NCBI GenBank assembly: GCA_029964075.1
Contig: CM057149.1
Location: 36,972,900 to 37,036,899 of the forward strand
Length of the DNA stretch: 64,000 nucleotides
Reading direction: 5' to 3'
Source: Patiria pectinifera
Lineage: Eukaryota; Echinodermata; Asteroidea; Valvatida; Asterinidae
Every line of letters begins with the position of its first letter. The stretch's first letter is position 1. The position numbers were made by a program, and so were the translations under genes. The notes beneath the pieces were generated by a model. It searched no databases, was not told the DNA's origin, and was given only the letters and a program-made list of their open reading frames with translations. Positions 20,219 to 59,627 of this stretch are shown here, piece by piece.

Positions 20219-20587
20219 TTATTTGGATGTGGTGTACTTGGTGACGGCCTTGGTGCCTTCGCTGACAGCGTGCTTGGCCAGCTCACCGGGCAGGAGGAGA
20301 CGGACGGCGGTCTGCACCTCACGGCTGGTGATGGTGGACTTCTTGTTGTAGTGGGCCAGGCGGGAAGCCTCGGCGGCAATACGCTCGAAGATGTCATTGA
20401 CGAAGCTGTTCATGATGCTCATGGCCTTGCTTGAGATGCCGGTGTCGGGGTGCACCTGCTTCATTACCTTGTAGATGTAGATGCCATAGCTCTCCTTTCT
20501 CTTTCGCTTCCTCTTCTTGTTGGTGCTTGGCGCACCCTTGGCTTTGCCGGCCTTCTTCTGTCCTTTTCCGCTTGGCTTGGGAGGCAT
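20219..20587 (-). CDS. H2B: Core histone H2B
   Basis: The intronless ORF encodes 122 residues starting [20 protein letters not shown] and ending [13 protein letters not shown]. It contains the histone-fold core ([20 protein letters not shown] and [20 protein letters not shown]) and packages DNA in nucleosomes with H2A. I chose the inner ATG at 20,587 because MPPKPSGKG is the family N-terminus. A TATAAATA box lies at 20,651-20,658 and the 3' stem-loop is 31 bases past the stop, so expression should be S-phase and non-polyadenylated. The tail [16 protein letters not shown] differs slightly from the usual APRTDKKRRRKRKES. It faces away from H2A, sharing a ~0.9-kb spacer. Confidence 0.97.
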
Positions 20588-20650
20588 GATGAGTTTCTCT
20601 ATTCTAGCAAACTGCAAGAAAATTGAATATCGTTGAAAGAATTCCTTCAG

Positions 20651-20658
20651 TATTTATA
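20651..20658 (-). promoter_or_regulatory. H2B TATA box
   Basis: TATAAATA on the minus strand, 64 bases upstream of the H2B ATG. A CCAAT box (GTAGCCAATCAA, minus strand) lies near 20,738-20,750. Confidence 0.85.
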
Positions 20659-21060: not shown

Positions 21061-21506
21061 CACATATTCCCTTGCCCTTTTTGTACTTTTCACACATTAA
21101 AGAAAAACGAGAATTCCCTCAGTCTTATTAAACTATTTTCCAATTGGACAACTCAATTTAAATTTATGAAACCATGAAACTGGAACAAGTGGAGCCATGG
21201 AACAATTCCTTCCTCCATGCTAAAACTTGCTCTCTAATAGTTTATGATTTCAATGAGTCCTAACAATTCATTAAATCATTGTTAATTTATCTTATAGAAA
21301 TCCAGAGGTTTTTTGCAGTCAATTTTCCTGTGTTCATTTGAAGAAAAAAAACCTACAAATGTAGGTATTGTTGTAGCATAGAGCGCTGTTTGAGGGCGTA
21401 CTGCACGAGCCACTATCGATCACTAGCGTCTGAAGCCAAGACTATGTACATTTTTCTGTTGTACTGGGCAGTGTTATGATTGGTTGAATGGAATCCGTCA
21501 GAAACG

Positions 21507-21514
21507 TATAAATA
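21507..21514 (+). promoter_or_regulatory. H2A TATA box
   Basis: TATAAATA, 62 bases upstream of the H2A ATG, mirroring the spacing at H2B. An inverted CCAAT (GATTGGTTG) lies near 21,478. Confidence 0.85.
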
Positions 21515-21576
21515 GTCGCACTGAAGGCGCAAAATTCAATTTTCTTTCAAAGAATCATCAGAGAACAATCATCAAC

Positions 21577-21954
21577 ATGTCTGGACGTGGAAAGGGAGGA
21601 AAGGCGCGCGCCAAGGGAAAGAGTCGATCATCCAGAGCTGGTCTGCAGTTCCCAGTGGGCCGTGTTCACCGTTTCCTGCGCAAGGGCAACTATGCCGCGC
21701 GTGTGGGAGCCGGTGCCCCGGTCTACCTGGCCGCTGTCATGGAGTACTTGGCCGCTGAGATCCTCGAGTTGGCCGGCAACGCTGCCCGCGACAACAAGAA
21801 GACAAGAATCAACCCCCGTCACTTGCAGTTGGCCATCCGCAACGACGAAGAGTTGAACAAGCTTCTCAGCGGTGTCACCATCGCCCAGGGTGGTGTATTG
21901 CCCAACATTCAGGCCGTTCTGTTGCCCAAGAAGACCGCCAAGGCTGCCAAATAA
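21577..21954 (+). CDS. H2A: Core histone H2A
   Basis: The intronless ORF encodes 125 residues, [20 protein letters not shown] to [11 protein letters not shown]. The [20 protein letters not shown] signature and the acidic-patch residues ([10 protein letters not shown] and NDEELNKLL) are present. It dimerises with H2B in nucleosomes. The inner ATG is used because SGRGKGGK is the family N-terminus. Two substitutions look unusual: [10 protein letters not shown] where RIIPRHLQLA is normal, and NYAARVGAG where the fourth residue is often Glu or Lys. A TATA box lies upstream and a 3' stem-loop 32 bases past the stop, so it should be replication-dependent. Confidence 0.97.
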
Positions 21955-24490: not shown

Positions 24491-26122
24491 CTAGAGAACG
24501 TCTGTGTTCCTTTTCCGTGTTGCCTCGCCTTTTCGAACGAGACCAATGACTTCTTCGATGTCACAGATTGCACTGAACATCCCCTCAGCGTGCTCACTCT
24601 GAAGCGCAAAGTTTCGCAACTTGTCCAGGCATCGCGTGGCCTTTGCAATGGAGACAGCCGGGCAGGGGGGTACCGGGGGTTCATCGTCATCCTCAACATC
24701 ATTAGCTTCTGCCAATAAAGCATCTAAGATGGTGTCGTCATGCAGCTCCACGGTACAGCGAACATTTGCATCAACTGCGGCGTAAGATTCCAGCGTTAGT
24801 TTCCTCGGAATATCCATCCCGGCATCTCTAAGTTTATGAAAGAGGTCCTCGTCTTCAGTGGCGGTGTTGATGTCAGCGTCAGGCTCAGATGTTTTGGTGT
24901 CCTGGGCAGTGGCTTTCTTGTTATGAAAGCCAGCAAGTTTAAAGCTGTGAGAGATGGTACTTTCCTTTACCATTTTCCAGGCTTTCTGGAGGAGAAACAT
25001 AGCATCCAACACGGTGGGGTTGTACTCCTCCTTCCTGTCCACTGCTGCAAGGAGCGATGTGATGAGTTGGCGGCGGTAGTGCGTTTTCAGGTTTTGAATG
25101 ACACCCTGTTCCATGGGCTGGAGTTGGGCCGTCGTGAAGGTGGGAAGGAAGACTAGATTGACGCTCTTCAAATCAGTGATTCGGGAATGTGCAGGACAGC
25201 TGTCGACAATTATGGCGATCTTTCGGTTTTTCTTTTGGTACAGTTTGTCGATGTTACGAGCCCATGCTTCAAAGATGTCGGATGTCATCCATGCTGTTTT
25301 GTTTGCCTCATACTGCATTGGTAGTGACTTCACGTTAGCCAAACACTGTGGCTTCTTTGACTTGCCAATGACAAGCAGGGGCAGTTTCTCGCTTCCGTCC
25401 ATGTTGGCGCACACCATGGCAGTCAGGCGTTCTTCGCTTCCCTCACCGCCACTGCAGGTCTTCCCCTTGCATGTGAGCAAGCAGTCAGGAAGAAGGCGGT
25501 AAAAAATGCCGGTCTCATCCGCATTAAAAATGTCCCATGGTTCGTACCCTGCCAGGACTTGATTTAAGCCGGTTTCCGACCGATCTGTCACCATTTCTCT
25601 TACTTGGGCGGCAATGGCAAGGAAGGTGATGCTGTGTTGCATCTTGAAACAATCCCACCATCCATCACTGCATGGGTAGTCGGGACGGCCCATCTTCTTG
25701 GACAGGGCTTTTGCCTTTTCCTGAACGAGCGGCCCTGACAATAGAATATTCATGGCACTTGCAGCCTTGCACCACTTCAGGACAGCCTCTTCGACCTCAG
25801 CAATCGTCGCCTTCCTCGTTCGTTTTCTTTCCTCCCGAGCGTCGCATTGGTGTTGGAACTGCTCCATCAACGTTCCCTTCTTTTCCAAGATAAAAGCCAG
25901 TCTTTTTGGCGTAATTCCCCATTTCCTAGCAATATCTACCTTCCTTTTCAAAACTCTGCCAGTTTGCCTGTTCTCAAATTCTTGGATAATTTTGACCTTA
26001 GCAGCAATTGACAAGGCCTTCCTGCCGGTTGTTTCCTTCCTGCCGGTTGTTTCCTTCGTTTTGGTTGTTTCCTCTGTTGTTTTTGGTTTGGCAACTGAAG
26101 TTTTACCCCTGAAAAATATCAA
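24491..26122 (-). mobile_element. Tigger/pogo-type transposase gene, intact ORF
   Basis: A continuous 543-residue ORF. Residues ~35-90 form a CENP-B-like N-terminal HTH (LSIAAKVKIIQEFENRQTGR, DIARKWGITPKRLAFILEKK). Residues ~110-165 form the second, Tc5-type HTH (CSDGWWDCFKMQHSITF). The DDE core follows: NADETGIFYR, then IIVDSCPAH, then LQPMEQGVIQNLK. In most Tigger/jerky proteins the third acidic residue is Asp (QPLDQG); here it is Glu. The enzyme would cut and paste elements into TA sites. A candidate terminal sequence (CTCAAGTTATCCAACTTTGA) lies near 26,592, but I found no matching left end. An undisrupted ORF means either recent activity or host use. A broken relative sits at 2.1-2.6 kb. 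Confidence 0.88.
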
Positions 26123-26689
26123 AATGAAATGACGTATTGTTTCAAAGTTTCACACACCAAATTCTGGGTCTGATTGGAAGACCAGCGTGCAAGCTGCATC
26201 TGGGCCAGCAGTATAACCAAACAGACCGACTCACAGCCAGGTGCGAGGCATCAAATTTCCAGTGCAATGACATGGCCATTGCAAAGAACCAGCGATTGCT
26301 TGTGATTGGACTGCCAGTGTGCAGGCAACAGTCGGGCCAGCAGAAGCTATCAGGCCAACTCTAAAGCCATATTTTTTGCTGTTAATGCCTGGTTATTGTG
26401 ACTAGTCCGACAGCGCTAGCAGCGTGCACACCATATCCCAAGTGAAAAAACAACAAAGTGCATTGGACAGTAACAACTCTTGAAAGAAAAAAAAGGATCA
26501 CGGTGTGGGCATTTCCAGTTACAGGGGTATTTATATACATAATATCCTATTCCCTTGATGGGAATGAAGTATAACTTCATGATGAACAAACACTCAAGTT
26601 ATCCAACTTTGAGTTATCGTGAGTTTGCCGTATTGCTCGACAGATTAAGTATAAAGAATGTGTCGTTGGGTTTCAGCACAGTGACAGAC

Positions 26690-27344: not shown

Positions 27345-28698
27345 TTACTTGGTAACCCCTGTGCGTGATCGCAGAAAATGCTTGGATTTGGGTTTATCGT
27401 TGGTGGGCTTCTGCTGGGATTGCTTGCACTTGCGTTCCTCTTTGCTCGGCTGCTTCTCTGGTTCTTTCTAAAAGACAGGGCGGGGAGAAGTAACAAAAGT
27501 GTGAAATCGAGACAAATTGAATAGTGTCTCGCCTATAACCAATGTAAATTCATTGTGTAAATCCTACACATGACACAAGTTCTGCTGTTTCAGGAAATTT
27601 AACTGTTGGTGAACTTATGACTTTTGATCTGCAAATGACTTTGCTTCCTCATTATAAAATTGGAATTGGTTTTAAAAAGAAAACCTAGTATGTCCCAACC
27701 ATAGAGCTAAATATACGTTGTTCTTGCGCATCGCATTTAGAGTACACTTTAAATATTAAATCCATCAAATTTCATTATGTTCTACAAACACGCATATGAA
27801 TTCAAAATGTCTGCGCGCAGGACGGCTTCAAAGTATCTTTGCGCATAAGAATGAGGAGTTAACGCTGTAGTAATTTCATATAGCTCTATGGTCCCAACCC
27901 AAAGTATTTCTCATCAGGCCAGTGTTAACCCCTCCAGGATGGTGTAATTTTCGATACAATTTGTTGGTGTACCGGTGCTAACTGAGGGCGCATGCGTGTA
28001 GTACACTGTGTATATGGAAAGCCCAGTGTGATCAGCCAAGCATAGCCATGAACAATGAGCGCACATACACCGAACAAAAGCCAGTCAAAAAAGCCCATCT
28101 ATTTAACCACGAACAATAAGAAGTGTCACTCAATACATTTCAATTTTCATGACTGAAGAAGGTTTACTGAACTTTCCCTCTCATAGAAATGATGGGAAAT
28201 GGATGTCATTTTGGAAAAAAAGATTCGCGCCCAGGAGGGGTTAATAGCTGGTTTCGTTTTTATGGAACGACTTAGAAAACTTAGATTTCCTTTGATGAGA
28301 TACAAGTCAATAAAGGGCTACTTCCCTGCAAAATGCCGGCACCCATTTATGCTTCTGGGTCGAGAGAGGCCAGTGGGGATGAAGTGGCTTGCCCAAGGAC
28401 ACAACATACAGCCCAAAGCTGGATTTGAACCCCTGACCCTCTGATCATGAGTCAGACACCTTAACCACTAGGCCACACTCCCCACCCATCTCAAGTGAAC
28501 AGACCAAACATCAGCTTGAAACGGACTATGAATTGAATGCTGACTCACCTGACTCACCTGTTTCTCAATACTCTCTGATTGTCTCTCCATGTCCTCTGTT
28601 TCTTTGTTCTCTTTCTCCTCTGTTGTAAGGTCTGTCTCAGGTCTCTTGATGTAGAAAAAGTGATCCACTAAGCTGACATCAACAGCGGGAGGAGGAAT
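27345..28698 (-). CDS. CFP1-like paralogue, last two coding exons
   Basis: Exon 28,558-28,698 (IPPPAVDVSLVDHFFYIKRP to SIEKQ) is one codon shorter than its CFP1 counterpart. Exon 27,349-27,467 encodes KEPEKQPSKEERKCKQSQQK to RSRTGVTK and runs into TAA. About 96 bases coding for the family cysteine motif have been lost. The old donor (AAGTAAGG) survives, but no downstream exon was found before the Tigger element. Confidence 0.75.
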
Positions 28699-31600
28699 CT
28701 GTCAGTAAATACAAATAAAGTAAAGGTTAATTTACTTGATCAATACGACAATCAACCAACGTTTATTCTTTAAATATCCCAAACCTTACACAAACTATGG
28801 GCAAAAGTGGCAAAGCAGCTGCACTGGATCCTGCAGAGATCATTATGGTGGATTGCTGCTTGTCAAATTGATACCTGGATTAACCCTAACCGAACTCAAC
28901 CCATCAAAGTTCAACAGCAGGTTTTGTTTAAATATGTTGGGATAGGTACAATACCCCTAAACAGATGGTCTTTCACATTGGGTTTGGCATACCTCCAGAA
29001 ACTAAGTCCAAAAGTGTGTGTGTACGATTTCCCATGTGGGTGTTGGAATTTGCCTGAATGGGTATGGTTCCTAGTAAATTAGGTTGGGGAGTTAGGGTTA
29101 ATGAAATCTTTGGATCTGTCACCAATAGTTCTATTCTAAATGTCAATTTAATTTTCATGAACATAATTTGGCTGATAGTTTACATCATGACATGCATGTG
29201 CACATTATTTTTCAAGGTCACACAGAATCACTTGCATTTATCCCAAAAGTATCATTATAGTCATCATCGGACAACTACCACATGCACTTTCGTCAGGCAT
29301 GATGATGGACACGCCACATGTCCTGTTCTATCATCAGTGTCTTGAGTTCATCTGCAGTCACGGCACTAGTAACTTACCAAACAATTATCAAAAAGCTTAC
29401 TTGGATTTAGGATTGTACTGGTACTAAACACCCCGTGAACTTATTTTGTCTGGCTTGCTGTCATTAGGAAGAAATCAAGAAATGTAGGTATTTCCAACAA
29501 TCAGTCAACTGACTGACTTTTGGAAATAAAGAGTGCTTTGGACAACGTTGTGTTTTGTGGTCAAATGGTGAAGCACAGTTTTTAACTATTTTCTCGGACT
29601 CAGTTCGCCTCAGCAGAGAGAAAGTGTGGATGAATCGTCTTCGAACTATTCAACCACATGGTCTCAACATCCAACTTGGAAATGATTAATCCTTTTCTTC
29701 CTCCATTGTCTTCTGTTACAGATAATCCACCTGGTCTTCCTTGTTTGTGTTTACCCATCTTCCCCCATCTTTCATCCCTTTCCACCTCCATACTGTTCCC
29801 CCGCATCATCCCCATTCACTTGTGACCTTTGATCCTTCCTGTTTACACCAGACCCCTTGTGGTTTGCCATCTCCCTTTGTTTCTGTGTTCTCTCATCCAC
29901 CCTCCCCTGCATCTTTCCACACCTTTCCCACCTAATCCTCCTTTTGCACCCCTATGTTAATGTATGTACCTCTGTCATTTCTGTTTTAGCCTCTGAAGAA
30001 GAACTTGCTAAGTTCGCAACGTCAGGCCACATTAATTTTTAGATTTATTTTCTCGAAAAGTAGTATCCACTGAGCTGAAACTTCGGCAGGTTAGGTTTTG
30101 AACAGTCTTCTTGGGATTTCGAGTGGTGTTATTATTGGAAATGAACAAAGTGCATGTAAAGCAAATGATTCTATATATCTATAAATGCACAATTTGCACC
30201 AATATGAGTCAGAGCAGCGGACCAATAGCATTGCAGGGATTACTTACACTGGCCAATCGGACGCACTGTTTCAACCGACACTTCTGTCTCAGTTCCTTCC
30301 GGCCACCGAACCTCTTCCTATCCTGAAAATATAATGAAGGAAAGAACATCTTGAGAAGACTGTCCTTTCCATCACGACCTCTAAAAAAAGTGAACTGCAC
30401 AACCATTTTCACATTTAACAAAATTGGAAAAATATTATGACATCTGATGCGACACTGCATGTTTGGATTTACAAACAAGACAGACAAAAATCTCAAACAC
30501 TTCTAAACATTCAAACACTTCTGACTTATACTTGTAGACAACTATCATAGAAATCAACTCATGTCTCGACAGCATTATTAACCTGAGCACTAAGAAAGTT
30601 GGGTCAATATTTATTTTATTTATCGTTTTATTTTACCAGGGTAGCCCCATCAATTAACTTAGAACTGTTCTCCCTTGGGGCCCTGGATTATACAAAACTA
30701 GCTGCACTCACCAGACAGAAAACACACTTTCTACAGTCATCGACAACCTTGCATGGCCCACACTGACCGCATTGCCTTGACTGCCACTGATGAAAGAAAA
30801 CGGGATGACAATAAAGTTAAGGGGAACGAATAGGGTAAACTGGGGTAAAAACGCCCATGGGGTAAAAACGCCCACTTGACTTGTTTCCACTGCTAGTAAA
30901 AAATGACAAGATGAATTGTTCAATGGAATATAAAGTACAATGTAGATAAAAACTAATAATAAAAAGAATTAAATTCATTAACATATTTGAAGGGTACGTA
31001 GGTGCTGTTGAAAAAAATATTTAAAAAATGGTCGTCGAAGGTTTAGCCTATATCGCTTAAAATTATTTTATAAAAAAAAGTATCTTATATTTTTATTATT
31101 CTTTAGTTGATATATATTAAGAAGGGTTAATAACATAATTATAAATGATTAAAATAATGAAATCTAATTTAGTATGTCCTTAATAATAATTTTTGAGTGG
31201 GCGTTTTTACCCCGGGCAAAATCAGGGGTCTCGGGGTAAAAACGCCCAGTACTTTCCTTGATATAAAACTCTATTGCAGCCTCATTTATCTTCAAAAACC
31301 TCACTGTTAGAACTTTCTGCAGCATTATGTTTGTTGTATGAGTAAGTATTAGCTATAAGAGTCCCATTACATAAATATTAAACAGTCAGGCGCGGATCCA
31401 GAGGTTTTTTTAGGGGCCAACCCCCCAGCTCCGTCAAAAAAAAAAAAATTATCAAACAAATTCCTAAAAATAAGTCGAACCCCCTTGCTTTGACACCCAA
31501 ACAAAAATTATACTGGTAAAATGTCCGCCTGTTCGAAATACGGTACGTGTACATCATTCTGTAATCTAGTGTTAATAATCGTCGAATTTGAACAGCGCCC

Positions 31601-34600
31601 CCTATTGTAATAACGGTACCAGCCAGCCAGCCCCCAGTTTTTGATTTTACGGAGGCAAAGTGTCCAGAGATTTTCAGATTTTTTTGCTGATGAACCCCAG
31701 CGAAAACTCCTGGATCCACCCCTGACAGTGTATTGCGTGAAGTGGGGAGGTACATGTAGGCGGTATCACTAACTGACGTTACGAAGTGGCAAGGAATGTG
31801 GCATTTGTTTAGTGGCGAATGCCATGGGTCTATGATATGTGAGCAGATTCGCTGATTAATTAGGCAAGACCCCGCCTCTTGACCTCCTAGATTTTGACCA
31901 ATCAGCGGGCGCTTTCTGACTCCCCCCCCCCCCTAGTCACTGACTGTCTCCCCGAGCCACTGACTGAGTCACTCACTGATTGACAGACTGAGTTAGTCAC
32001 TGACTGACTTACTCCCCTACTGACTGACTCCCCCCCCCCACTGATTGACTGACTGAGTCACTGATTGTCTTACTGAGTCACTGAGTCACTGATTGACTGA
32101 GTGAGTCACAGATTGACAGCCTAGGTGAGTCACTGATTGGCTGAGTCAGTGACTGGCTGACTGACCGAGTCACTGATTAACTGATTGACATAGTCACTGA
32201 CTGACTGAATGGCCGAGTCACATAGCGACTGACCAATTCTCTGAGAATCAATAATTAATATCATTAACTGAGACTTTCTGTTCCAACTAGAGTTGTTTAT
32301 TAAAATAAGTAGGCCCTATAAACTTTTCAGACAACTTTTAACAACAAAAACATTCACCAAAAAACTATGCTTAAAACAAGTTTCATCTCACCGCTGGGGC
32401 CTTGTAGGGTCTGATCCTCGACGCTGTCTCTGTAGCTTTGAGGGCCTCTTGTTTCGAGGTGGGGGTGTAAGTTTTCCCTTCTATCATTTTCCTCCTTGCA
32501 TTTGCTTGCATCTTTATGCATTTTGTTGCCTGTAATTTCCACTGATTCTTTCTCTTTGTGATGTTCTGGAGCATCTCTCTCTTTTCGCTGTTCTTGAGCA
32601 TCTCCCCGGATGCCTTCTCTGTGTCCTCCTCGTCTTCATCTGGCTCGTTCTCCATCTCGGCTGGGTCATTGCTCTCCTGATCTTCTGAGAACACAGTCTC
32701 AGCTTCTTGACTGGTCTGTATTAGTTCTTGGTCTGGCTCCTCCATCTCCATGTACACAGTCTCGGTTTCTCGATTGGTCTCTACAGGACGAGTCAAACAG
32801 AAAGTGACCAAATTAGAAAAAAAAAACATAAAAAAATTTGGGCTATTCAACACAATAAAACAACCCAAATGAATGGAGGAGAACTTGCAAAAGAAAACAC
32901 ACCAAAATTGCCATTAATATTTCAGAAAAAATAGATGACTTGTTCCACATAACTCAAAACACAAAGTCTGAAAGTAAAAATGATGTTTCAGTCTTGATTT
33001 AAAAATCTTTGTCTTTGAATGCTTGTGTGTAATCTGAATGGCCAAATAAAAAAAAAACATGTTTAGTTTCCTCGCCCTTTTCCTTTTTGGCAGCCGCCTC
33101 TTCTTTTTTTTTTTATTGAAAAAAAAAATCAAAAACCCGAAAAATTGATAAATTTTAAAGAGTGACATCATACAAAGGTGATATGCCATTTCCTGAGTCC
33201 AAGTGACAGCCCTTTAAAAAAAAAAGTGGCGGCTGTGTTGAAAATTAGCCCGGCGGGTCGTTTTGGAAAATGGGTCAGGCACCCATTTTAGGAGAAAAAA
33301 AGGGCCTCCTTCCTCTTTTTCAAAAAGGCAGGACGCTTACCATGTTTATTTTTCATTTGGCCTATTTCTCACTCAGCTCAATAGCTTCCAATGGCATTTC
33401 ATGGACAGCTATTAAATGGGTTCTTTTAGTAAAAACATGCATAAATGCTGATAGTATGGAACAATTTCAGTAATCCTTTTTTTTTTTCAGATGAGGGGAA
33501 GAACATGCTCTTTGAACAGATACTTCATTGGAATTTTAAATTTGATTTCTTTTTTAGAAAAACGGAATTAAAGGGGCACTAGGTCCTGAAATCCCCGAAA
33601 ATTTCATGTTTTGGATTGTTTACTTATCCTATTTCAAATATCTGGTTGAAAGAAATCCAACCTAATGTCTTACAGCTCCGAAAAAATACGAAAAAAAAAG
33701 CCGATTGTTTACATCGGACACAACGGAGTACGAATACGAAAATTTCATGTTTTGGATTGTTTACTTATCCTATTTCAAACATCTGGTTGAAAGAAAACCA
33801 ACCTAATGTCTTACAGCTCCAAAAAAATACGAAAAAAAAGCCAATTGTTTACATCGGACACAACGGAGTACGAATACGCTTTTCCTGTCATTTTCCATGT
33901 ACGATATACATGTACACGTTCTGTGTATTATAACACACGTACACAGCACCGTGTTCGAGAGCATGGTTTCTTACACGTCTGCAAAAGGGAACACTTTACG
34001 GATGAAATCACAACTAGCACCAAAACAGCTCGACCTTTTGGGGTCGCAAAAGTGGACCCCGAAAGTTGTTCTTGCATGCAAAATACAGGAGTAACACAAA
34101 AATTTCCAGTTTTTAAAAGGATAGTTGTGTGGATGTTTATATTTTACTTTTAACAGTTCGTTTGGTAGCACTATTGTGCTGTTCCAGGACACAGTGTCCC
34201 TTTCAGGTCACTTTCTTTTTGACTCACCCTGTAATAGCACTTGGTCTAGCTCCTCCTCCTCCTCCTCCTCATCTTCGACTAAGTCCTTGCCTGCCTCTTG
34301 CTCTTCATACACAATCTGGTCTTCTGGGTTCATCTTTAATAGTGCTGTCCCAAATAAACCAAAAAGTCAAATAGTTTATCAACCAAATATTCAAACAGCT
34401 TTTTGGCGGTTTGAATATATCAAAACTAAAAACTATGCACATATGACTGTGATGTTATTTATCGTAAAGTTGCAGCTCTTTTTGTCATGTGCCACTTTTT
34501 TGTCAACATTAACTATTTTGTCGACTTTTTTGTTCCCATCCTTTTAGCAGGTTAAATCCCTTTCTGTTAAAAGTATTGCAAAACACTGTAGCGCCACTTA

Positions 34601-37600
34601 TCAATCGCTGCACGCAAATTTGACCGATGAAGCATTGTAGCTGCAGCTGGCAGTTTTGAATATTCTAATATTCGGTCAAAGGCAGTTTTGATTAGGCCAA
34701 AACAAAAAATACTTCTGCTTCTGATTACATGGCATTCAAAAATAGGGTAGGAAGGTAGGGATATATATTTTTTTTTTGCCAATTTTTTTATGTACAATTA
34801 TATGGAGGCATCTGCGTGTAGTCAAGGGTAAAAGGTAGAAAATGATGGTTTTGGGTGTTTTTTTCCTTCTCATTTTTCCCATAAAAAAATTAGTGTAGGG
34901 GCTTTCAGAGTAGGGTAGGTAGGAAATCCGGTACCAGAAATCTTTCTTTTTTTGGCTTTACCCTAAAATAAATTTTTCAAAGATGGACAGCACCAGTTTA
35001 TATAAAAGCAGCAAAAATAAACAAAGTTATTCTGGTAACCAGAGACAAGTATCCAATTTAAATGTGTGCAACAGTGAACTCCACTTCCACTACATTGTAT
35101 TGCATATTGTGTGATATAACTAGTCTTTGACAGCGTTACTTGCAAACAAAAATTAACGTCTAAGTTCAAAGCTTCCATTTTTAGACGGTGCACGTCGTGA
35201 CACAAATGGACAGTTTCACTGACTAATGATGATGATCGTCATGCTGATCAATGCTCAACATAACAGGGTTAATGCCAGAAAACCTGATAAGTATCCACTC
35301 ACAAGCGCATGGTGGGCATGCATATTTGATGATGCGTCTATAGGCATCTCTTCCTATGCCAATGCAGTCCCTATGGTACCACTCTTGACAGTAATTACAG
35401 CATCTGGGAAAAAAAACAAGAACCGTTTGGTTTAACTCCAAAACCTTTAACTCTCTTTGCGTAATCCCAAATAATTCTAAAACAATGAGGTGTGATGCTC
35501 ATTAATCCAAACTCCCTAGCGTCTTTTACTAGGAACTGGACCAAGTCCATCAAATTCCATCAATCACTGCGCTTCCAATACAAAACTGTACATGACATAA
35601 TGGAATCCACCACTGACGCACTGGTTGACATTCATGGACTTGCTACACATGGCTTTTATCACAATAGCAGTGCAGGATGCTGGGCAAAATCAATCGGATA
35701 CCCCTAGCACTGCTTCAGGCCATCAGGCCCAAGTCTATCATAGTCCATCAATATTTAGTTACACCGGGCCTCCTGGACCAAGTCCACCAAAATCCACCAC
35801 TATGGGGGGATGGATTTTGATGGAGTTGGGGTGGTCAGAGTCACAATTCCAGATTCTAGGTCTGTCAACAGACTAAATAAAAAATTTCAAATAAAAAAAA
35901 AATTGAAACAATCTGATCGATTGATTGATCAATTGATCTTATTGGGTTCCTAGGTTCCTTCAATGTTGGCTAATATTACTTTCTAAACCTGCATTTTAAA
36001 GCAACATCCTTGAAAACCAGGGGTTCTAAAGCATTCAGATTTTTAAAGTCAAAGAAAAAAAATGACAGAGACGGGGTTTGAATCTGCGACCTCCAGATTT
36101 CTGCTCCAGTGCTCTACAACTGGGCTATCCAGCCATACGTTGGTGGTTGAGGTTCCTCATTTTGTCAGTCTTTGTTCAATTATGGTAGGTAGGATCAAGC
36201 GACTATAACATGTCGGGTGCGTTCTGACATGAGAATCAGTTTCAAGAAAATTGCATTGAAAGGCTCCAATGTTACTCCACGCATATTATAAATCATACAA
36301 ATTTGTCACACGACACACATATGAATCATAATTTTGTGTTGCAGGTACATAGCAGCTCAACAAAGCAGCATGTCTCGCCGTTAGTCTGTACGTTAGTTAG
36401 TACCAAACGTTGACATTGTCTGTTGTTCCTACAAGTAGATATTTTGACTGATTTCAACCAACCTGGGTTTGATTGGTTAATTCGAATGCAGACTTATGTA
36501 AATTTTTAAGTGTCTAAATATATGTATATTGTTTTTATGTGCACATTGGGAAGAAGAATTTCACTTTTAAAGTCTTTTAATTGTGATGAAATGAAATATT
36601 GTATTGTATTGTATTGTTTTCTGTAATACAACGAATGCCGAGCGCATTATCGCGTGACATGATACAGAGCGCGTGACACAGGGTTTTTATCCATTGTCTA
36701 TGACACGCAACGAGTGAATGACCGAAGACGTGATATAAAGCGCCGACCGATTGGACAAGATCTAGAGGTCAAGAGGCGGTTGTCTTGCCTAATTAATCAG
36801 CAAATCTGCTCACATATCCTAGACCACGGCGAATTCTATTACATAGACTAAGCCCCAACATGTCACATGACCAAACTGGGGGACAAGGTCATCATGGGGT
36901 CCAGGTCAAAGTAATGCAAATTTCAAATAAGCTCAAATGAGAAAAAGTAGCATTGTCAACATGTTGGCCTCGGTCAAACATTAAATAATGTCCACGGTGA
37001 CCTCTTCATCCAATCTACAGTTATGGGGTCAAAGGTCAAAATAGGTCAAATTTTAAAGAAGTTAAAATTTCAAAAGTAGCACTGTCAACATGTTGGCCTT
37101 TGTAAACATTAAAAAATGTTCATAGTGACCTCTTCATCCAATCTACAGTTATGGGGTCAAAGGTAAAAATAAGAGGAACACGAATTCTTTGGCCTGAAAC
37201 TTCCGAGATCTGATCGAGCTTGTTTGAACAACTTTTTAATGTTTAAATGTCATTAAAATGAAGATAGTTTTCTAAATAGGCCCTTTTGCTGACATATCTT
37301 GGTAATAAGCCTGCGCGTAAACGCCCTTCTGCCAGGCACACGATGAACTCTTATTGTGTGTCCCGTGAACCTGCAGTTCGTTCCACACAAAAGGGTAAAC
37401 GAACAAAAAACAATCAACCAAGAGCAATCAATCAGTGATTGCTTCACCTCCATATCCATGTAACAGTAGACGGACCACCGGCGCAGGATCATCCCTGGGT
37501 TTGGATGTGCCACTTCACTAGCAAGAACCGTCTAGGGAGTTCCAACAGGTAAGGTTTTACCTCTCTTGATAAAATACTCACATCATAACTCTTGTTCTAC

Positions 37601-40600
37601 CAATGGAACAGCATAAGCCGCAGTTTCTAGGCTTATTGCTAGTGGTCTCCTTGACCTCGCCATTCTCTTTGTCCCCCATTTTCTTCTTTTGGTGGTTGTC
37701 TACCTTGGCCTTCCTCCTTCGCCTTACTTGGCCATCCACACCGGTGGTCTCTTGGTCCCTCATCCTTTTCTTCATTCTGGGGAGGAATTTGACCTTGGCC
37801 TTCCTCTTTGGCCTTCCTTGGCCTTCCTCCACGCCACAGTGTCTAGTCTCCCAAGATTTATCACCGGTGGTTTCCTTGGCCTTGTCCCGGTCTTTTTGGT
37901 TGTCCCTCATTTTCATCAAGTGATCATAATCCTTGGATATCTTTGGTTTCTTTCTCTTTTTGGTGTTCTTGAGCATCTCCCTGGATGCCTTCTCTGTGTC
38001 CTCCTTGTCTCCATCTGGCTCCTCTTTCTCGGCCAGGTCCTTGCCTCTCTCCTCTTTGTACACAGTCTTGGCTTCTGGATTGGCCTCTATGAAAGCAGCA
38101 AACAATAATTATATCATAAAGTACAGTAAAAACTGTAACCAAAGACAAGCGTCCAATTTTTAAAAATTTATGAAACAGCAAACTTCACTTCCACTACATT
38201 GCATTACTCACTCTTTAAATGACAATATTCTCCAAATTTTTATCAGACAAAAAGACAAGTTCCTCAGTACTTCACCAACCAAGTTTAAAGTCTTAATTCA
38301 ATGCTTAAAAGAGAATTTCTTTCACAATTTTGCATCTGAGAAGGAAGTCGAGTGATATCAATTTGAGGCCAAAGAGTCCAAAATTTTCAGACAAATGCAA
38401 TTTTAAACAGGAATGCAACTGGGAATTGAGGGGGGGGGAACATTTAACTCCAAACCACACAAGACTCTGTACAGCATTTTTTATTTGGAATGGCATTCGT
38501 GAGAAGTAAAAATTGAGGAAATCAGCGGAACCGAGGAAAAGTTGCTTGCTTCAATTTATGAAATAAATGGATGTTTTCACTGACTGATCATAATCATCTT
38601 GTGGGCTCAATGTTCAACATAACAGGGCTGATGCCAGAAAACCGGATAAGTACTCACCAGAGCATGGTGGGCATGCATATCTCTTGATCCAGTCACAGGT
38701 TTCTTTCTCTAAGCCAATGCAGTCCCCATGGTACCACTGTTCACAGTAATCACAGCGTCTGGGAAAAAAAACAACCAAGTACTGTTGATTTAACTCTAGA
38801 CCCATAAATGTGGATAATTTACTGGACTACCTAAATGTGGCCAATTTGCTGGTTCCTGGGTTCCTCACTTTAAAAACCTACCTTTTATAGCAAGATTGTC
38901 CAAAAGTAACCAGAGGTTCTCAAGCATTTTCAAGGATACTTTTCGACAGTTAAACAAACATACTGTATGACTGAAGCAGGCTTTGAACCTAAGACTTCCG
39001 AATTTCTTCCCTTTCTCGGAAAGAATGAAGTATTCAGACGCTATTTTGTGGGTTGCATACAAAGTCTAAAGAGAGTTAAGAAGATTGTCTTTTCCAAAAT
39101 TGGAAATGAATAGGCCCTACCTACCCTATTCTGACAGCCCCTACCCTAATTTGTTTATGGGCAAAATGATGAAAAAAAACCTCAAAAACCATCAATTTCT
39201 CCCTTTGACCCTTGACAACACGCAGATGCCTCCATACGGTCGTGCACAAAAAAATTAGCCAAAAAAACATTCCCTACCTACCTACCCTATTTTTAAATGC
39301 CATGTAATAGGAAGCAGAACTATTTTTTTTTTGGCCTTATCAGTCCCAGATTAATGCCTTTTCAAAATTTTTGCAATGACTGACCTCTAATGAGATGAGA
39401 TATGATGACAAAAAATGGCGCTAGGATGCAAGATTCTGTCCGCATCCTCTACCAACGGAGCTTTACGGCTTTTTGTTGGCGGTTCCTCATTTTGTCAATG
39501 CCTCTGTTCAATGAGGCGCTAGTCAGGATTTTCAAGGACTTCAGTCTTAAGACTATGCCATTGGGATCCACACCACTTTCTCGATTTGTAAGTAGGTGCG
39601 GAGCTTACTAGCAGAGACTGAATGGGGAGTTTATGGGAAAGAATTTTTTTTTCTCTGATAAAATACCCACATCATCAATCTTGCCCTGTCGATGGACGAG
39701 CATATGCAGCAGTGTCTAGGCTTGTCAGCTTCATCATCAATGGTCTCCTTGTCCTTGTCTTTCTCTTCGCCTGCCTTCATCATGCTGAGGAGGTATTGGA
39801 AGGATCTGGCAATCTCATCTTGCTGTAAAACAGAAAGGAATAACGCATAATTACCTTTTCACCTTTAAGAAGCTGCAGAAAGATTGGCAGAGGATCAAAT
39901 CATACACAGGAACTGCTCAGCCAAAATGTAAACAATAAAATGTTAAAACGTAACCCTCATTTTATCTAGTGCCTGTCTAGGGCCGGTCCACAGAGTTACG
40001 TATTATGCCCATGTATTCACAACAGGCAAAGACCTAGATGTGGAGGTGAAGTACATGTAGTACATTTTTCATACACAGTACAGTCCATTGACTTGACAGC
40101 TGTTCAATGTCCTACTCGGCATAAATAATCGAGGTACGGTGCCCTCTGATTGGCTGTTCTGATCCTTGATGCAATATTTTTCCCGCATTTATGATACGGC
40201 CATAACCCAGGCGCAGCGCCGTGAACTAGTTCCAGTCCACTTCGGTTGGCACATTATTTTTTTTTTTTAACAGAAGAATTTCACCAGAAGGAAGCACGGG
40301 GACTGAAGTCCTAATTTTGGGATGTAATTTTGTTGCCCGGGTATAAAGTGAACCCACATGCCGAGAATGAGCCCGAAGGATTTCCATGAAAAAAAATAAT
40401 TTGTTATTTTCGTGTTGCGTTTTGGCGTTGTCATCGTCATTTACCCCCAAAATTTCCCTCAAACGACGTCTCACGTCTGACTGCAAAAAAAATGGTAGGA
40501 AGTCACATTTTCTTTGAAAGTGCTTTCAAAATTGCAACAATGAGTTTATCTGAAGAAAAAAGACTGCTCTAGCCTGCAAAAGTCACTTTGGTACTGGACG

Positions 40601-41856
40601 ATCATCTGCAAAAGTCAGTTTTGAACAGAACAAAAAAAATAGAGGTGTCCTAAAGATAAGGTGAGCATGTTGTAGTTCTCGCAACACGAGTGAAAGCCCG
40701 ACCCAATGAAAGCCCAATGCTGATTGGCTGCTAAAAAAAACAAAAAATAGGTTTTTTTTATCAGCCAATCAGCATTGAGCGTTCATTGCATCTAGCTTGC
40801 ACATTTGCCATCTTGGTTTTTTAGTCTCTTTTCGGAATGATTCCCATATCCTGGCCATCACTTGACACCCTGTGCCCAAAAACTATGAGACTGGTCTGAA
40901 CATTTCTAAGTGTTTTCTCAGTAAATACTTCAATATTTTCCCTGCTAAATTTGAGTTTTTAGGACATATTATTACTTTCCGATGGCTGATAGGTCACTGA
41001 AGGGAAAATTTGTGATGGCCAGATATGGGAATCTTTCCTCCACAAAATTAAACCTGTTGATATTCAAGAAGGCGTCATTACCAACTGTTCTGTGTCAAGA
41101 AATCAGAATGTCACTTTTGAGTGTCATGATTTTGTCAGTTGTTTTGGCGAGTCTTTTAATATTACCTAATTTAATACTTTAGGCAGCGCATATTTAGCCG
41201 GAGATGACAAACCTTTAGTAAACGTTAGCTTGCCGGATATGCACTGAACATGCGCAGTTACTGTTTTTTTGTACCAAGACATTTTCCGGTGACAAATTTT
41301 AGTCTGGTTCCATGCCAACATTAATATTATCGTTGTATTTTCATATTCACAAGATGGGAATCAGACCATTTTACAATATTTTCCTTTAAAAATAATCCTC
41401 CAGAACCACAAATCTGAAAAAGAAAATGTTAATAGGCTACAATAAAAATTTTGAGACATGTTAAAATAATAAAAGAAGAATATTCTTATTTTTGGGGGAT
41501 GGGGAAAAAAACCCTTAAAAATTTAGGCAGGGATTGAACCCGGATCTTCCCGCTCATGAGATCCGTCGCTTAACTAGGCTAGGCCATGCTACACAACCGT
41601 TCATCGGATTATCATATGATTCAGCCCTATCTTAGAGAGTACAGCGCCCTCTGTTGATAGGGATTGCCGCCGGCAAACCTTAAGTAAACGTTAGCTTGCT
41701 GGGATTGCCGCCGGCAATATATCCACTATCATTAATAAACACGAAAAGTTAGAGGGAGAAATTAACGACTCTCACTCTCAGTCTCAATTGAGATTTAAAG
41801 GGAAAAGCAAGTAGGCCTATACATACTGGAGAGGTTGTTCCTTCACTATAAGACAT
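27345..41856 (-). CDS. CFP1-like paralogue with two PHD fingers and a CXXC finger, truncated C-terminus
   Basis: Eleven exons join in frame on the minus strand: 41,827-41,856 (ATG), 39,671-39,822, 38,658-38,758, 37,582-38,086, 35,303-35,403, 34,228-34,344, 32,392-32,780, 30,712-30,786, 30,248-30,322, 28,558-28,698 and 27,349-27,467 running on to TAA at 27,345. All junctions have GT-AG sites and matching phases, giving about 602 residues. Predicted order: PHD1 (~47-93), charged linker, PHD2 (~250-295), acidic linker, CXXC (~466-515), charged tail. The family C-terminal coiled coil and SET1-binding domain are absent and not seen downstream. It likely arose by tandem duplication of the CFP1 locus plus internal duplication of PHD/linker exons. 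Open frames and intact zinc ligands argue for selection, but transcription is unproven and a young pseudogene is possible. Confidence 0.75.
28262..28492 (-). repeat. tRNA-derived SINE, paralogous copy
   Basis: Same family, orientation and exon-relative position as 3,335-3,537: reversed GTGTGGCCTAGTGGTTAAGG and GGTCAGGGGTTCAAATCC, with the shared body CTTGGGCAAGCCACTTCATC. Confidence 0.75.
28884..29097. mobile_element. Short TTAA-flanked MITE with CCCTAACC ends
   Basis: CCCTAACCGAACTCAACCCA at left and TTGGGGAGTTAGGG at right, with perfect TTAA on both sides (28,880-28,883 and 29,098-29,101). Same end type as 26,983-27,318. Confidence 0.75.
29595..30045 (+). mobile_element. Penelope-like retroelement 3' tail
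   Basis: One frame near 29,595-29,690 reads DSVRLSREKVWMNRLRTIQP-HGLN, resembling the C-terminal end of Penelope-like (GIY-YIG) proteins. It is followed by the family-typical noncoding tail with CTGAAGAAGAACTTGCTAAG-TTCGCAACGTC. Only the 3' end is present; a fragment. Confidence 0.55.
30248..30786 (-). CDS. CFP1-like paralogue, CXXC zinc finger (two exons)
   Basis: Exons 30,712-30,786 and 30,248-30,322 give WQSRQCGQCGPCKVVDDCRK then DRKRFGGRKELRQKCRLKQC. All eight cysteines, the FGG turn and the RQ pair used for CpG recognition are kept. Exon lengths (75 bases) and phases equal those of CFP1. Confidence 0.88.
30837..31252. mobile_element. Possible MITE with GGGGTAAAAACGCCCA repeats
   Basis: GGGGTAAAAACGCCCA occurs twice at the left end and once, plus once inverted, at the right end. 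CTGGG/CCCAG terminate the segment. The interior is AT-rich and noncoding. Confidence 0.4.
31387..31727. mobile_element. MITE with CAGGCGCGGATCCA ends
   Basis: Left CAGGCGCGGATCCAGAGG, right CCTGGATCCACCCCTG, flanked by ACAGT on both sides. A second member, 56,069-56,346, has CAGGCGCGGATA / GGATCCGCCTCTG ends and shares the middle ATTATACTGG and AATGTCCGCCTG. Confidence 0.65.
31935..32230. repeat. TGAC-rich simple repeat, paralogous copy
   Basis: Degenerate tandem of GACTGAGTCACTGATTGACT-type units in the same intron position as 7,306-7,430 of CFP1. Confidence 0.8.
32392..34344 (-). CDS. CFP1-like paralogue, acidic linker (two exons)
   Basis: Exon 34,228-34,344 encodes TLLKMNPEDQIVYEEQEAGK then a run of Glu ending LDQVLLQ. 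Exon 32,392-32,780 encodes ETNRETETVYMEMEEPDQEL and on to RIRPYKAPA. Both begin with a version of the CFP1 ANPDAKTVYKEK motif, so the linker exon itself was duplicated. Both start in phase 1 and the second ends in phase 0, joining the CXXC exon. Confidence 0.75.
33040..33362. mobile_element. GGCC-type MITE (ACATGTTT subfamily), reverse copy
   Basis: GGCCAAATAAAAAAAAAACA at left and TGTTTATTTTTCATTTGGCC at right. No clear TWA duplication is visible, unlike its relatives. Confidence 0.6.
33598..33878. repeat. Two-copy tandem repeat, ~140-bp unit
   Basis: AATTTCATGTTTTGGATTGT...CAACGGAGTACGAATACG occurs twice in a row with few differences, in an intron of the CFP1-like gene. Confidence 0.85.
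34695..34957. mobile_element. GGCC-type MITE (ACCTACCCTA subfamily), TTA target site
   Basis: GGCCAAAACAAAAAATACTT at left, TTTCTTTTTTTGGCT at right, TTA on both sides. Related to 39,113-39,336 in reverse orientation. Confidence 0.65.
35303..35403 (-). CDS. CFP1-like paralogue, PHD finger 2 second half
   Basis: CCNYCQEWYHRDCIGIGRDA to YACPPCA, 101 bases, same phases as the other PHD second-half exons. With NCGLCCSIG from the exon at 37,582 it completes a C4HC3 finger, its first pair spaced CxxC rather than CxC. Confidence 0.85.
35506..35840. mobile_element. TTAA-type MITE, reverse copy of 26,983-27,318
   Basis: AACTCCCTAGCGTCTTTTAC at left; ATGGATTTTGATGGAGTTGG at right; the middle shares GACTTGCTACACATGGC. 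TTAA lies at the left end only; the right end has decayed. Confidence 0.7.
36058..36145 (-). repeat. tRNA-like SINE head
   Basis: Reversed: GGATAGCCCAGTTGTAGAGC (A box) and GGTCGCAGATTCAAACCCC (B box). The acceptor stem does not pair, so this is a SINE rather than a tRNA gene. Confidence 0.6.
36480..36616 (+). repeat. Retroelement-like 3' end with TGTAT tail
   Basis: GAATTTCACTTTTAAAGTCT then GATGAAATGAAATATTGTAT-TGTATTG: a transcript-end-like sequence finishing in short TGTAT repeats, as in many non-LTR elements. No coding part is seen. Confidence 0.35.
36885..37170. repeat. Two-copy tandem repeat, ~131-bp unit
   Basis: Both units contain CAACATGTTGGCCT, ACCTCTTCATCCAATCTACA and GTTATGGGGTCAAAGGT; similar degenerate units are common in invertebrate intergenic DNA. 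Confidence 0.8.
37582..38086 (-). CDS. CFP1-like paralogue, fused linker and PHD2 first-half exon
   Basis: A single 505-base exon starts like the CFP1 linker (ANPEAKTVYKEERGKDLAEK) and ends like the PHD first-half exon (NCGLCCSIGRTRVMI, donor GTGAGT in phase 2). In CFP1 these are two separate exons in the opposite order, so this exon is the junction of an internal PHD-linker duplication. It is rich in Lys/Arg/Asp/Glu. Confidence 0.8.
38658..39822 (-). CDS. CFP1-like paralogue, PHD finger 1 (two exons)
   Basis: Exon 39,671-39,822 (QDEIARSFQYLLSMMKAGEE to HCCICSSIDRARLMI) and exon 38,658-38,758 (RCDYCEQWYHGDCIGLEKET to YACPPCS) form a complete C4HC3 finger. The donor after the first exon is GTGGGT, weaker than GTGAGT in CFP1. 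The first exon is 33 bases shorter than its CFP1 counterpart, an in-frame loss. Confidence 0.8.
39113..39336. mobile_element. GGCC-type MITE (ACCTACCCTA subfamily), truncated
   Basis: GGCCCTACCTACCCTATTCT at left; the right end has the subfamily poly(T)-GGCC followed by TTA. About 35 bases of the left terminus found in 34,695-34,957 are missing. Confidence 0.6.
40552..41740. other. Intron 1 region of the CFP1-like paralogue; hairpin and SINE head
   Basis: An inverted repeat CAATGCTGATTGGCTG / CAGCCAATCAGCATTG lies at 40,712-40,780 and a tRNA-like SINE head at 41,522-41,605 (minus). The word GTAAACGTTAGCTTGC occurs at about 41,218 and 41,687. No coding exon is recognised. The third copy (53-56 kb) lacks this stretch. 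Confidence 0.5.
41827..41856 (-). CDS. CFP1-like paralogue, coding exon 1
   Basis: ATG plus nine codons (MSYSEGTTSP) ending at GTATGTATA, phase 0. Same length, phase and donor as CFP1 exon 1 at 16,855-16,884. Confidence 0.7.
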
Positions 41857-43960: not shown

Positions 43961-44879
43961 TGGAACGCCAAAGAGGCATTTAATGTGATCACCGAATCGG
44001 TGATGTACTTTCGCAGTCGTTGATACACTGCAGCGGTGATGGACTTTGCATCGGTGATGGACTTTCTCGATTGGTGATGGACTGTCGATCGTCTATGAAG
44101 CCCGGGAAGGGACAGGGTGGAATTTTTTTTGGCATTTGCTAATTCGTTCGCACGAAATACTAATTCGTTCCCACGAATTGCCAATTCGTTCCCACGAATT
44201 GCTAATTCGTTCCCACGAATTACTATTTCGTTCCCACGAATTGCTATTTCGTTCGCACGAATTCCTAATTCGTTCGCACGAATTACTAATTCGTGCGAAC
44301 GAATTACTAATTCGTGCGAACGAATTAACAAACTCCAGTAATTCGTTCGCACGAATTAGTAATTCGTTCGCACGAATTAGTAATTCGTTCGCACGAATTA
44401 GTAATTCGTGTGAACGAATTAGGAATTCGTGCGAACGAAATAGCAATTCGTGGGAACGAAATAGTAATTCGTGGGAACGAAATAGCAATTCGTGGGAACG
44501 AATAGTATTTCGTGCGAACGAATTAGCAAATGTCAACAAAATTGTCCACCCTGTCCCTTCCTGGGCTTCATAATCGTCGGTTAACTTTGCAGTTGGCGAT
44601 GGACATTTGCGACCGGTGACCGCAACTTTGATCGCCGATTGCGAAAGACCATCACCGATCGCGAAAGTCCATCACCGGCACCGAGCCCGAAGGCAAAGTT
44701 GATCACCGCGCCCCTGGTCGTGCATCAGTGATTCACCGATCGCAACAGTCCATCACCGATCGCGATTCGCGACAGTTCATCACCGATCGCAAACTCCATC
44801 ACCGCTCGTGAATATGCCTCCGATTGCGAAAGTGGATCACCGATTCGGTGATCACATTTAATGCCTATTTGGCGTTCCA
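43961..44879. mobile_element. 919-bp whole-length palindromic element with 21-bp repeat core
   Basis: Ends TGGAACGCCAAAGAGGCATT and (reversed) TGGAACGCCAAATAGGCATT continue as inverted repeats of ~60 bases, then recur deeper (GAAGGGACAGGGTGGA / TCCACCCTGTCCCTTC). TA flanks both ends. The core, about 44,141-44,530, is ~18 units of a 21-base repeat built on AATTCGTTCGCACGAATT, itself nearly palindromic. The units flip orientation about a centre at AACAAACTCCAG (44,328-44,339). The arms are rich in ATCACCGAT/CATCACCG words. It ends 99 bases before the P450 ATG. Confidence 0.85.
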
Positions 44880-53050: not shown

Positions 53051-53059
53051 AGTATTCAC

Positions 53060-58040: not shown

Positions 58041-59627
58041 GGACCGACTGTAAAACAGTTCAGTTGCGACAAGGTCTTGGAATTCTGTTATCAACATGGT
58101 TTCTTACACTTTAAAAGTGGGGTTGTAAGTTTGGGGGAAAAGAGAAACAATGTACAAGGCAAGGCTATAAAGCTGGTGCAAGAGCGCACGAAATTCTATT
58201 CATTCAATTGATTCAAATTAATGACTGGTAGCCCACTATACTAATCAGTGGCTTAGCAGGGTTATTCCATATAGCACTGCCAGTGACTCACAAGCCACAG
58301 TCGGTCAGAGAGTCAGTGAGTCAATGATTGATATTCCATACATAATAACAAGTATGACCCGTTGGAAGACACTGTAGCGTCATATTAAGTTATACCTTTG
58401 GGAGACGCGTCAAATTAGGGAGACATGTTAGTGTCTCCATAATTCCACAGCCCCTACTTGGAGGCAAAATTATGGTGTCGCAAAAAGGCTAGATCAATTG
58501 CTCGTGTTCCAATTAGTAAAAAATACCGAAATTCGTGGGGGTAGGATAAGGTGAAATTGGAGTTAGGGGTCATTAAAGATTGGGGGGGGGGGGTGTGTGC
58601 ACAAGTCTATGGGAATGTCTCCCTAATCCCCAATTATCGGTAATTATTAAAACCATAGTCATTATAATGGGAATAACAATAGTGTACCCTGCAACCCCGC
58701 ACCTCGCAACCCCCTTTAGGCGCCTCTACAGCGTGCTTCAGCTTACGCATGCGCAAAGCACGTAATTGGCGATGCTGAACGGGGTGGCCTATCAAAACCA
58801 GACCATTTTCCACTTTAGCTCAAGTCCAAAGTCGTGTATACGTCACGTAGTTGTATTTGTATTGTAGCGAAATAATCTTTTGTCAGGCCATGCATTTTGT
58901 TATTATTGCGATCAAGAGAGGGCGCCAGACAAGACCTATAAAAAGTATCCGTATCTGGGCAGACCCGCCGAGGTCGCCAGGGTCATACGCTAGACAATAA
59001 ATGATTACAATGTATACATTTGAGGCGCGGGAAAAGAGTACGCGCAACAGGGAAAAACGGTCTTCGCTGCGAGGAGACGGGGTCCGCAACTACACAAACG
59101 CCTTCGCTGGACGTTGAATTATTGCACTTCGAGCAACGGCGGTGTTGCTGTGACGGATAGCACTATTTGGATGACAGAGGCGTGAAGCTTGATGTGCGAG
59201 ACGCGCTTGGACTGGGCCTACTGGTGTGGGGAGCTCGAGAGGGCAACAGTCAAGTCGGCTACACCTGTACTGGAGTGACGGTTCAACGCTGCGGTGGATG
59301 AACTGAGGATTGACAAGTCTCCGGCCTGGATCGACTGGTGAAACAGCTCATGGTATTGTAACTTCGGCAGGACTGATTAATGAACTTTCACCTTTAATTG
59401 TATTTTGAACAGTACACGTGTAGGCTATAATTTCATTAAGGTTTGCCCTGAAAACACAAAAAAAAACAGTTGTTGTATTGTTGAGGTGTGTTTGAAGTCA
59501 GCTGCCTAATACATGTAGTTTGCTCATTATCTCATTTACCTGTGTACATATGCAACAGTGTGTCCGAAGTTATGAAAGTTTGATTGAGAGTGCTTGAGGG
59601 ATTTTTTTGGGCACAGAAGCAAATATT

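Follow-up and report, generated by a model that had tools for sequence, protein, structure and literature searches.

Partial CFP1 copies on one sea star chromosome: a probable recombination mosaic beside the intact-looking gene and a candidate multi-CXXC family

Introduction

CFP1 couples CpG islands to H3K4 methylation. In cultured mouse cells, CFP1 mutated in its SET1-interaction domain (SID-mutant CFP1) showed a higher occupancy of unmethylated CpG islands than the wild type, and H3K4me3 was rescued neither by this mutant nor by a CXXC/PHD mutant (excerpted text of PMC5603731). Mutation of C375 abolishes Setd1 binding (excerpt of PMC4879243). In type-1 CXXC fingers the K/RQ motif contacts CpG, and KFGG does not (excerpt of PMC3685328). 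In PMC5603731 the occupancy of CpG islands in the absence of the methyltransferase was studied with engineered mutants. The CFP1-derived family described below would, if real, be a natural in vivo test of such occupancy against H3K4me3.

The stretch of DNA analysed, hereafter the window, has a length of 64,000 nt (C21:36972900-37036899) and lies on a 40-Mb contig of the 613.5-Mb genome of Patiria pectinifera. It contains a CFP1 gene, here called gene A, and to the right of it, in the same orientation, two partial CFP1 copies: the composite (41856-26691), followed by copy D (~55690-53053). For the composite, the 5' part is referred to as C and the 3' part as B.

Gene A and the composite

2907-16884, minus strand: gene A, coding exons E1-E12 of CFP1 (exon joining, PF12269 matches, Pfam PHD and zf-CXXC)

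Gene A is CFP1 and looks intact. The PHD was found in E2/E3 and the CXXC in E7/E8; E12 holds the Cys cluster that belongs to the SET1-interaction region (E12-E13), with the C-terminal exons running leftward beyond the window edge. The nearest solved structures to its domains were the CFP1 PHD (PDB 9c0o) and the CFP1 CXXC (PDB 3qmb).

Several other elements were recognized in the window. An inverted repeat pair of ~0.95 kb, 87% identical, sits in a gene A intron (7487-8428 and 10301-11249). Between gene A and the composite there were, by eye, two divergent frames, one H2B-like (20219-20653, minus) and one H2A-like (21427-21954, plus). Near the 3' end of the composite, a minus-strand open frame of 552 codons (24491-26149) carried DDE_1 and HTH_Tnp_Tc5 domains, as in a Tc5/jerky-type transposase. 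Further to the right we noted a repeat array (44094-44572) that matches its reverse complement at ~90% identity and has long open frames on both strands, and a plus-strand open frame of 375 codons (59598-60725) that contains a CCHC-like motif and, by eye, resembles gag.

The composite consisted of eleven minus-strand exon-like blocks, from an ATG at 41856 to a TAA at 27345, with GT/AG intron ends and consistent phases:

41827-41856, minus strand: E1, MSYSEGTTSP (exon joining)
39671-39822, minus strand: E2, first half of PHD1, C-C-I-C (similarity and exon joining)
38658-38758, minus strand: E3, second half of PHD1 (similarity and exon joining)
37582-38086, minus strand: E4, fusion exon whose head is acidic and whose E2-like tail, resembling that of the 35.15-Mb copies, holds the first half of PHD2 (C-G-L-C)
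35303-35403, minus strand: E5, second half of PHD2; its last base, T, gives TAG with E6
32392-32780, minus strand: E6, acidic/basic linker (exon joining)
30712-30786, minus strand: E7, first half of the CXXC (exon joining, Pfam)
30248-30322, minus strand: E8, second half of the CXXC, RFGG and LRQ (exon joining, Pfam)
29401-29457, minus strand: E9, with an in-frame TAA inside (exon joining)
28558-28698, minus strand: E11 (exon joining)
27345-27467, minus strand: E12, without the Cys cluster that E12 has in gene A; a TAA stands at the position of the former donor

A counterpart of gene A's E10 (4617-4510) was looked for in the composite by sequence comparison and none was found. Where gene A and the composite could be aligned, the blocks were 75-87% identical, more than chance. 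In the Pfam search, the part preceding the E5/E6 junction contained two PHD stretches (PF00628, 44.7 bits together), and the part following it a single zf-CXXC (44.9 bits). A preliminary description of this locus had reported eleven exons in the order PHD-PHD-CXXC, derived from CFP1 by duplication of the PHD exons, and our results agree with it on all these points. The SET1-binding end, which it had given as missing, is indeed missing. All four genome matches of PF12269, the CFP1 C-terminal domain, belong to gene A and none to the composite, and the composite E12 is without the gene A segment LPQCYGPGCV...C. This E12 Cys cluster probably corresponds to the region of C375 and would hold the SET1-interaction Cys.

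CFP1-like copies elsewhere on C21

A 213-residue query from gene A gave at least 61 matches against the genome. Among the matches listed, 39 were on C21 at 35.1-37.03 Mb, with 53-96% identity, and the other 22 had identities of at most 51%. DNA matches to the CXXC query (19) and to the E4 query (10) were found on C21 only. The CFP1-like N-terminal copies that we detected are confined to about 1.9 Mb of a single chromosome. Outside this cluster the genome had four further zf-CXXC matches, on C19, C10, C22 and C8.

Two more partial CFP1 copies, 3515a and 3515b, were found at C21:35110001-35170000. The first had a PHD and one CXXC; its E2 contained stops, and its CXXC was followed by a short tandem repeat made up of the end of E8 and the donor. 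The second had a PHD half; a CXXC was looked for in it and none was found.

More surprising than the composite is the family derived from CFP1 that lies outside the window and includes a multi-CXXC member. We found two such copies:

C21:36428146-36442046: g3643, with E1-E4, three CXXC units, E10, E11 and E12
C21:36062360-36049087: g3605, inverted near-copy of g3643, with four CXXC units and a frameshift in E4

The E9 of g3643 carries a TGA. Its 13 exons without E9 join into an open frame of 555 codons, followed by a Lys and a stop if the E12 donor is read through. Pfam recognized in it one PHD and three zf-CXXC, and no PF12269. The three fingers carried KYGG/LRQ, KFGG/LKQ and KFGG/QRQ. Relatives of E13-E15 were searched for behind the paralogues, and none convincing was found in the 160 kb searched (best E 0.13). 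We infer a complete loss of SET1 contact in g3643 with caution, because its E12 Cys cluster is still there.

The collinear blocks of g3643 and g3605 were about 88-97% identical, and such a near-identical inverted pair may represent either two loci or an assembly effect. We rejected the g3605 E4 as a second open copy, a 1-nt difference from g3643 shifting its frame. With E9, the frameshifted part of E4 and the CXXC unit that g3605 has in addition left aside, the two differed by 10 synonymous and 17 nonsynonymous changes over all exons compared (dN/dS 0.41, 0.19-1.03). The PHD and matched CXXC exons had 7.5 synonymous and 2.5 nonsynonymous of these changes, and the E4 head and E11 alone had 1.5 and 13.5, respectively. 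Between gene A and g3643, dN/dS was 0.35 (0.17-0.66) for the PHD, 0.24 (0.09-0.62), 0.30 (0.12-0.73) and 0.42 (0.17-1.20) for CXXC1 to CXXC3, and 0.51 (0.31-0.83) for E10-E12. Judged from these values, the PHD and CXXC exons of g3643 look constrained. A search of the literature gave no CFP1 paralogues of such kind among the matches listed.

Zinc-ligand and reader residues

The claim that all zinc ligands of the composite are kept stood for the CXXC and fell for PHD2. The CXXC retained its eight Cys, together with RFGG (one change from KFGG) and LRQ, the latter bearing out the earlier statement that the CpG-contact residues (R-Q motif) are present. In PHD2 the first Cys was shifted by one place, resulting in a C-x2-C spacing.

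The first zinc ligands of gene A read Y-C-I-C, the same as in the CFP1 PHD of PDB 9c0o. The Tyr before the first Cys was gone from PHD1 (H-C-C-I-C) and PHD2 (N-C-G-L-C) of the composite and from g3643 (C-G-V-C). Met and Trp were kept in both composite PHDs. We assume that this Tyr is part of the methyl-lysine cage in the H3K4me3-reading class of PHDs. Because it is lost in both PHDs, H3K4 reading by the composite appears doubtful.

Mosaic origin of the composite

The different parts of the composite had different closest relatives. The E4 tail matched the E2-like exons of 3515a and 3515b. E5 with its flanks was 91.8% identical to 3515a, the E5 exon alone 98%. The flank before E6 scored 127 with 3515a, whereas four other copies gave 26-29. 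In terms of similarity, the copies at 35.12-35.16 Mb are the best matches to the E4 tail, E5 and the pre-E6 flank. The CXXC exons of the composite were less close to 3515a: E8 resembled gene A more (91%), and E7 the first CXXC unit of the 36-Mb copies (87%).

53053-55690, minus strand: copy D, with E1 at 55690, E3 at ~54237-54137, and a fusion E4 at ~53565-53059 having a 1-nt frameshift

In copy D, E2 was looked for and not found, as were the second half of PHD2 and a CXXC behind E4. The fusion exon E4 is common to C and copy D. The two were 87.6% identical in the aligned introns, 95.0% in E3 and 93.8% in E4.

The composite is likely to be a mosaic assembled by recombination from CFP1 duplicates with truncated C-termini, and not an intact PHD-PHD-CXXC gene. 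As the matches suggest, the two PHDs in a row would have arisen by unequal recombination inside E4, between truncated CFP1 copies. For a large part of their history its components would have encoded protein, and the mosaic that they now form would be in decay. Any product today would be shorter, either PHD-PHD up to the TAG (296 residues) or PHD-CXXC without E4, E5 and E9 (361 residues). The composite is mainly a lesson in how families form and decay through unequal recombination.

Reading frame of the composite

Joined at the ancestral splice sites, meaning those shared with gene A, the eleven exons gave 583 codons and two in-frame stops before the terminal TAA: one is a TAG formed where E5 meets E6, the other a TAA within E9. 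This contradicts the in-phase join into about 602 residues given in the preliminary description.

The last base of E5 was a T in the composite, 3515a and 3515b, and an A or G in the other five of the eight copies compared. Since the T is common to three copies, the TAG does not depend on one base call, and a sequencing error behind it is unlikely. We did not retain the TAA in E9 as proof of death, E9 being broken also in the open paralogue g3643.

The composite and 3515a differ at the E6 acceptor:

32784-32938, minus strand: 155 nt present in the window and not in 3515a, between AACAAG and TAGAGACC

In 3515a the next exon can begin after AACAAG (T+TA), the frame staying open into L-E-T-N. In the window, a frame continued past AACAAG runs into a stop six residues later, and use of the acceptor that ends in TAG produces T+AG. 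Compared with the flanks of five copies, the 155 nt had no match better than shuffled sequence. They were dropped as a proven insertion, because 3515a may instead have lost them. The TAG stands whether the window gained these nucleotides or 3515a lost them, so our assessment of the readings below is unchanged.

We scanned for splices bypassing the TAG, accepting only donors in the E5 open stretch above -6 and acceptors of at least 0. Two frame-preserving splices were found (donor 35284 or 35299, with exon start 32842). On approximate weights set by us, in place of a trained model, these donors scored -4 and -5, compared with 0.4 to 8.3 for the ten donors of the composite. Their acceptor scored 2.5; the ten acceptors of the composite scored between 5.6 and 10.3, and the lowest value in gene A was 2.6 (E9). 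We suspect that the 602 residues rest on such detours. A single gene of that length was rejected on account of the two stops and the weak detour splices.

Selection on the composite

Pairwise dN/dS was calculated after Nei-Gojobori, with bootstrap ranges in brackets. Lineage counts were obtained by three-way parsimony with no outgroup species, and three-state sites (3, 1, 1 and 4) were dropped. The copies recombine, and therefore all dN/dS values and lineage counts are rough.

Between gene A and the composite, dN/dS was 0.55 (0.25-1.30) for the PHD1 exons, 1.17 (0.49-3.98) for the PHD2 half plus CXXC, 1.46 (0.50-5.76) for the CXXC alone, 0.35 (0.19-0.63) for the post-CXXC exons, and 0.55 (0.41-0.80) for all A-B exons. 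A neutral dN/dS had been named beforehand as speaking against a functional gene; the PHD and CXXC exons, with their neutral-like substitution counts (see below), gave such a result and the post-CXXC exons did not.

The composite lineage had 3 synonymous and 14 nonsynonymous changes in PHD1, 1 and 11 in the PHD2 half (E5), 1 and 10 in the CXXC, and 9 and 22 in E11/E12. The g3643 lineage had 8 and 13 in the PHD, 6 and 1 in CXXC1, and 6 and 21 in E11/E12. Against a neutral nonsynonymous share of 0.81, derived from site counts with no transition correction, the PHD1 plus CXXC counts of the composite showed no difference (p = 0.64) and those of g3643 differed (p = 0.0002). The composite PHD1 plus CXXC counts also differed from g3643 (Fisher p = 0.009). 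The PHD and CXXC exons of the composite change in a neutral-like manner.

Other results pointed to a coding past. None of the 14 zinc ligands was hit among the 27 amino-acid differences between B and gene A over 83 residues (P = 0.002 under random placement), some of these changes falling on gene A's branch. Considering substitutions only, the frames of E5, E7, E8, E11 and E12 survived 54 inferred substitutions without closing (chance 0.06), and that of E6 survived about 53 (chance 0.10). C and D differed less in exons (36/605) than in introns (90/725; p = 7e-5), with a dN/dS of 0.42 (0.22-0.88) over E3 and E4. E3 alone had 0 synonymous and 5 nonsynonymous changes, and E4 had 18 nonsynonymous over 403 sites and 12 synonymous over 95 sites. 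The ligand, frame, post-CXXC and C-D results are compatible with a recent coding function. We read the composite as coding parts that turned non-coding, or were reduced, late.

Possible products of the composite

Three readings in which the composite makes a protein were weighed against a decaying mosaic. The best of them, which we still regard as improbable, is a live gene for a protein with a single PHD and a single CXXC and without the SET1-binding end, in which E3 is spliced to E6 and E9 is skipped. E3 joins E6 in phase (G+AG), so that skipping E4 and E5 avoids the TAG, and once E9 is left out as well the joined exons form an open frame of 361 residues. The TAA in E9 need not matter here, since E9 is broken in the open g3643 too. 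The kept zinc ligands, and E6-E8 being open beyond chance, also fit such a protein. It is opposed by the splice sites of E4 and E5, which score like the rest, and by the neutral-like substitution counts of the PHD1 and CXXC exons.

A double-PHD protein without a CXXC, made from E1-E5 and ending at the TAG after PHD2 or in a retained intron, is less probable again. The joined E1-E5 are open for 296 residues up to the TAG, Pfam recognized both PHD stretches in them, and the E4 counts against copy D given above favour such a product. The PHD halves themselves do not: the C-D changes in E3 are all nonsynonymous, and on the B side E5 has 11 nonsynonymous changes to 1 synonymous. If the transcript were spliced on to E6, several junctions would follow the stop, which would favour mRNA decay.

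The PHD-PHD-CXXC protein of about 602 residues, reached through non-ancestral splice sites round the TAG and the TAA, is very improbable: it has its two frame-preserving splice pairs, an acceptor close to that of gene A's E9, and shorter in-frame E9 versions that look possible by eye, but both donors are below all ten of the composite, the TAA demands a second change, and PHD and CXXC substitution is neutral-like.

Functional implications

A recombination mosaic thus remains our preferred reading of the composite, and among the copies found g3643 would be the better candidate for a CpG reader without SET1 binding. Because of the behaviour of SID-mutant CFP1, a protein with PHD and CXXC but no SET1 half is a plausible competitor. 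As the presumed working form of the family, g3643 would bind unmethylated CpG by several fingers without bringing SET1. It could occupy CpG-rich promoters, competing there with CFP1-SET1.

We tentatively propose, at somewhat less than even confidence, a lineage-specific family of CFP1-derived readers, partial copies on one chromosome that have kept PHD and CXXC and are without PF12269, in which the CXXC was tripled or quadrupled in the C21 pair at 36.05 and 36.43 Mb. In this proposal g3643 would be translated as a multivalent CpG binder competing with CFP1-SET1 at unmethylated CpG-rich promoters, and the window copy would be a recombinant offshoot that may yield PHD-PHD or PHD-CXXC.

Comparison with known systems

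The composite shares with CFP1/CXXC1 the exon order, the phases, and the PHD and CXXC sequences. It differs in its second PHD, its stops, the displaced zinc Cys of PHD2 and the lack of a Tyr before the first ligands. It also lacks the E12 Cys cluster, PF12269, and, unless E4 and E5 are skipped, an open frame from the PHD to the CXXC.

Like the SID and C375A mutants of CFP1, the paralogues would keep a CpG finger without the SET1 interaction (excerpts of PMC5603731 and PMC4879243). Those are engineered point mutants of a full protein, whereas the paralogues are without whole C-terminal exons.

With MBD1, which has up to three CXXC fingers, g3643 and g3605 share the presence of several. In MBD1 the third finger alone binds CpG (excerpt of PMC4642587), whereas in g3643 K(F/Y)GG and a K/RQ motif are present in each of the three fingers.

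The window copies resemble unprocessed pseudogenes in their kept introns, partial extent, stops, exon loss, and the frameshift of copy D. They differ from them in that the zinc ligands and most frames have been kept better than neutral decay would give.
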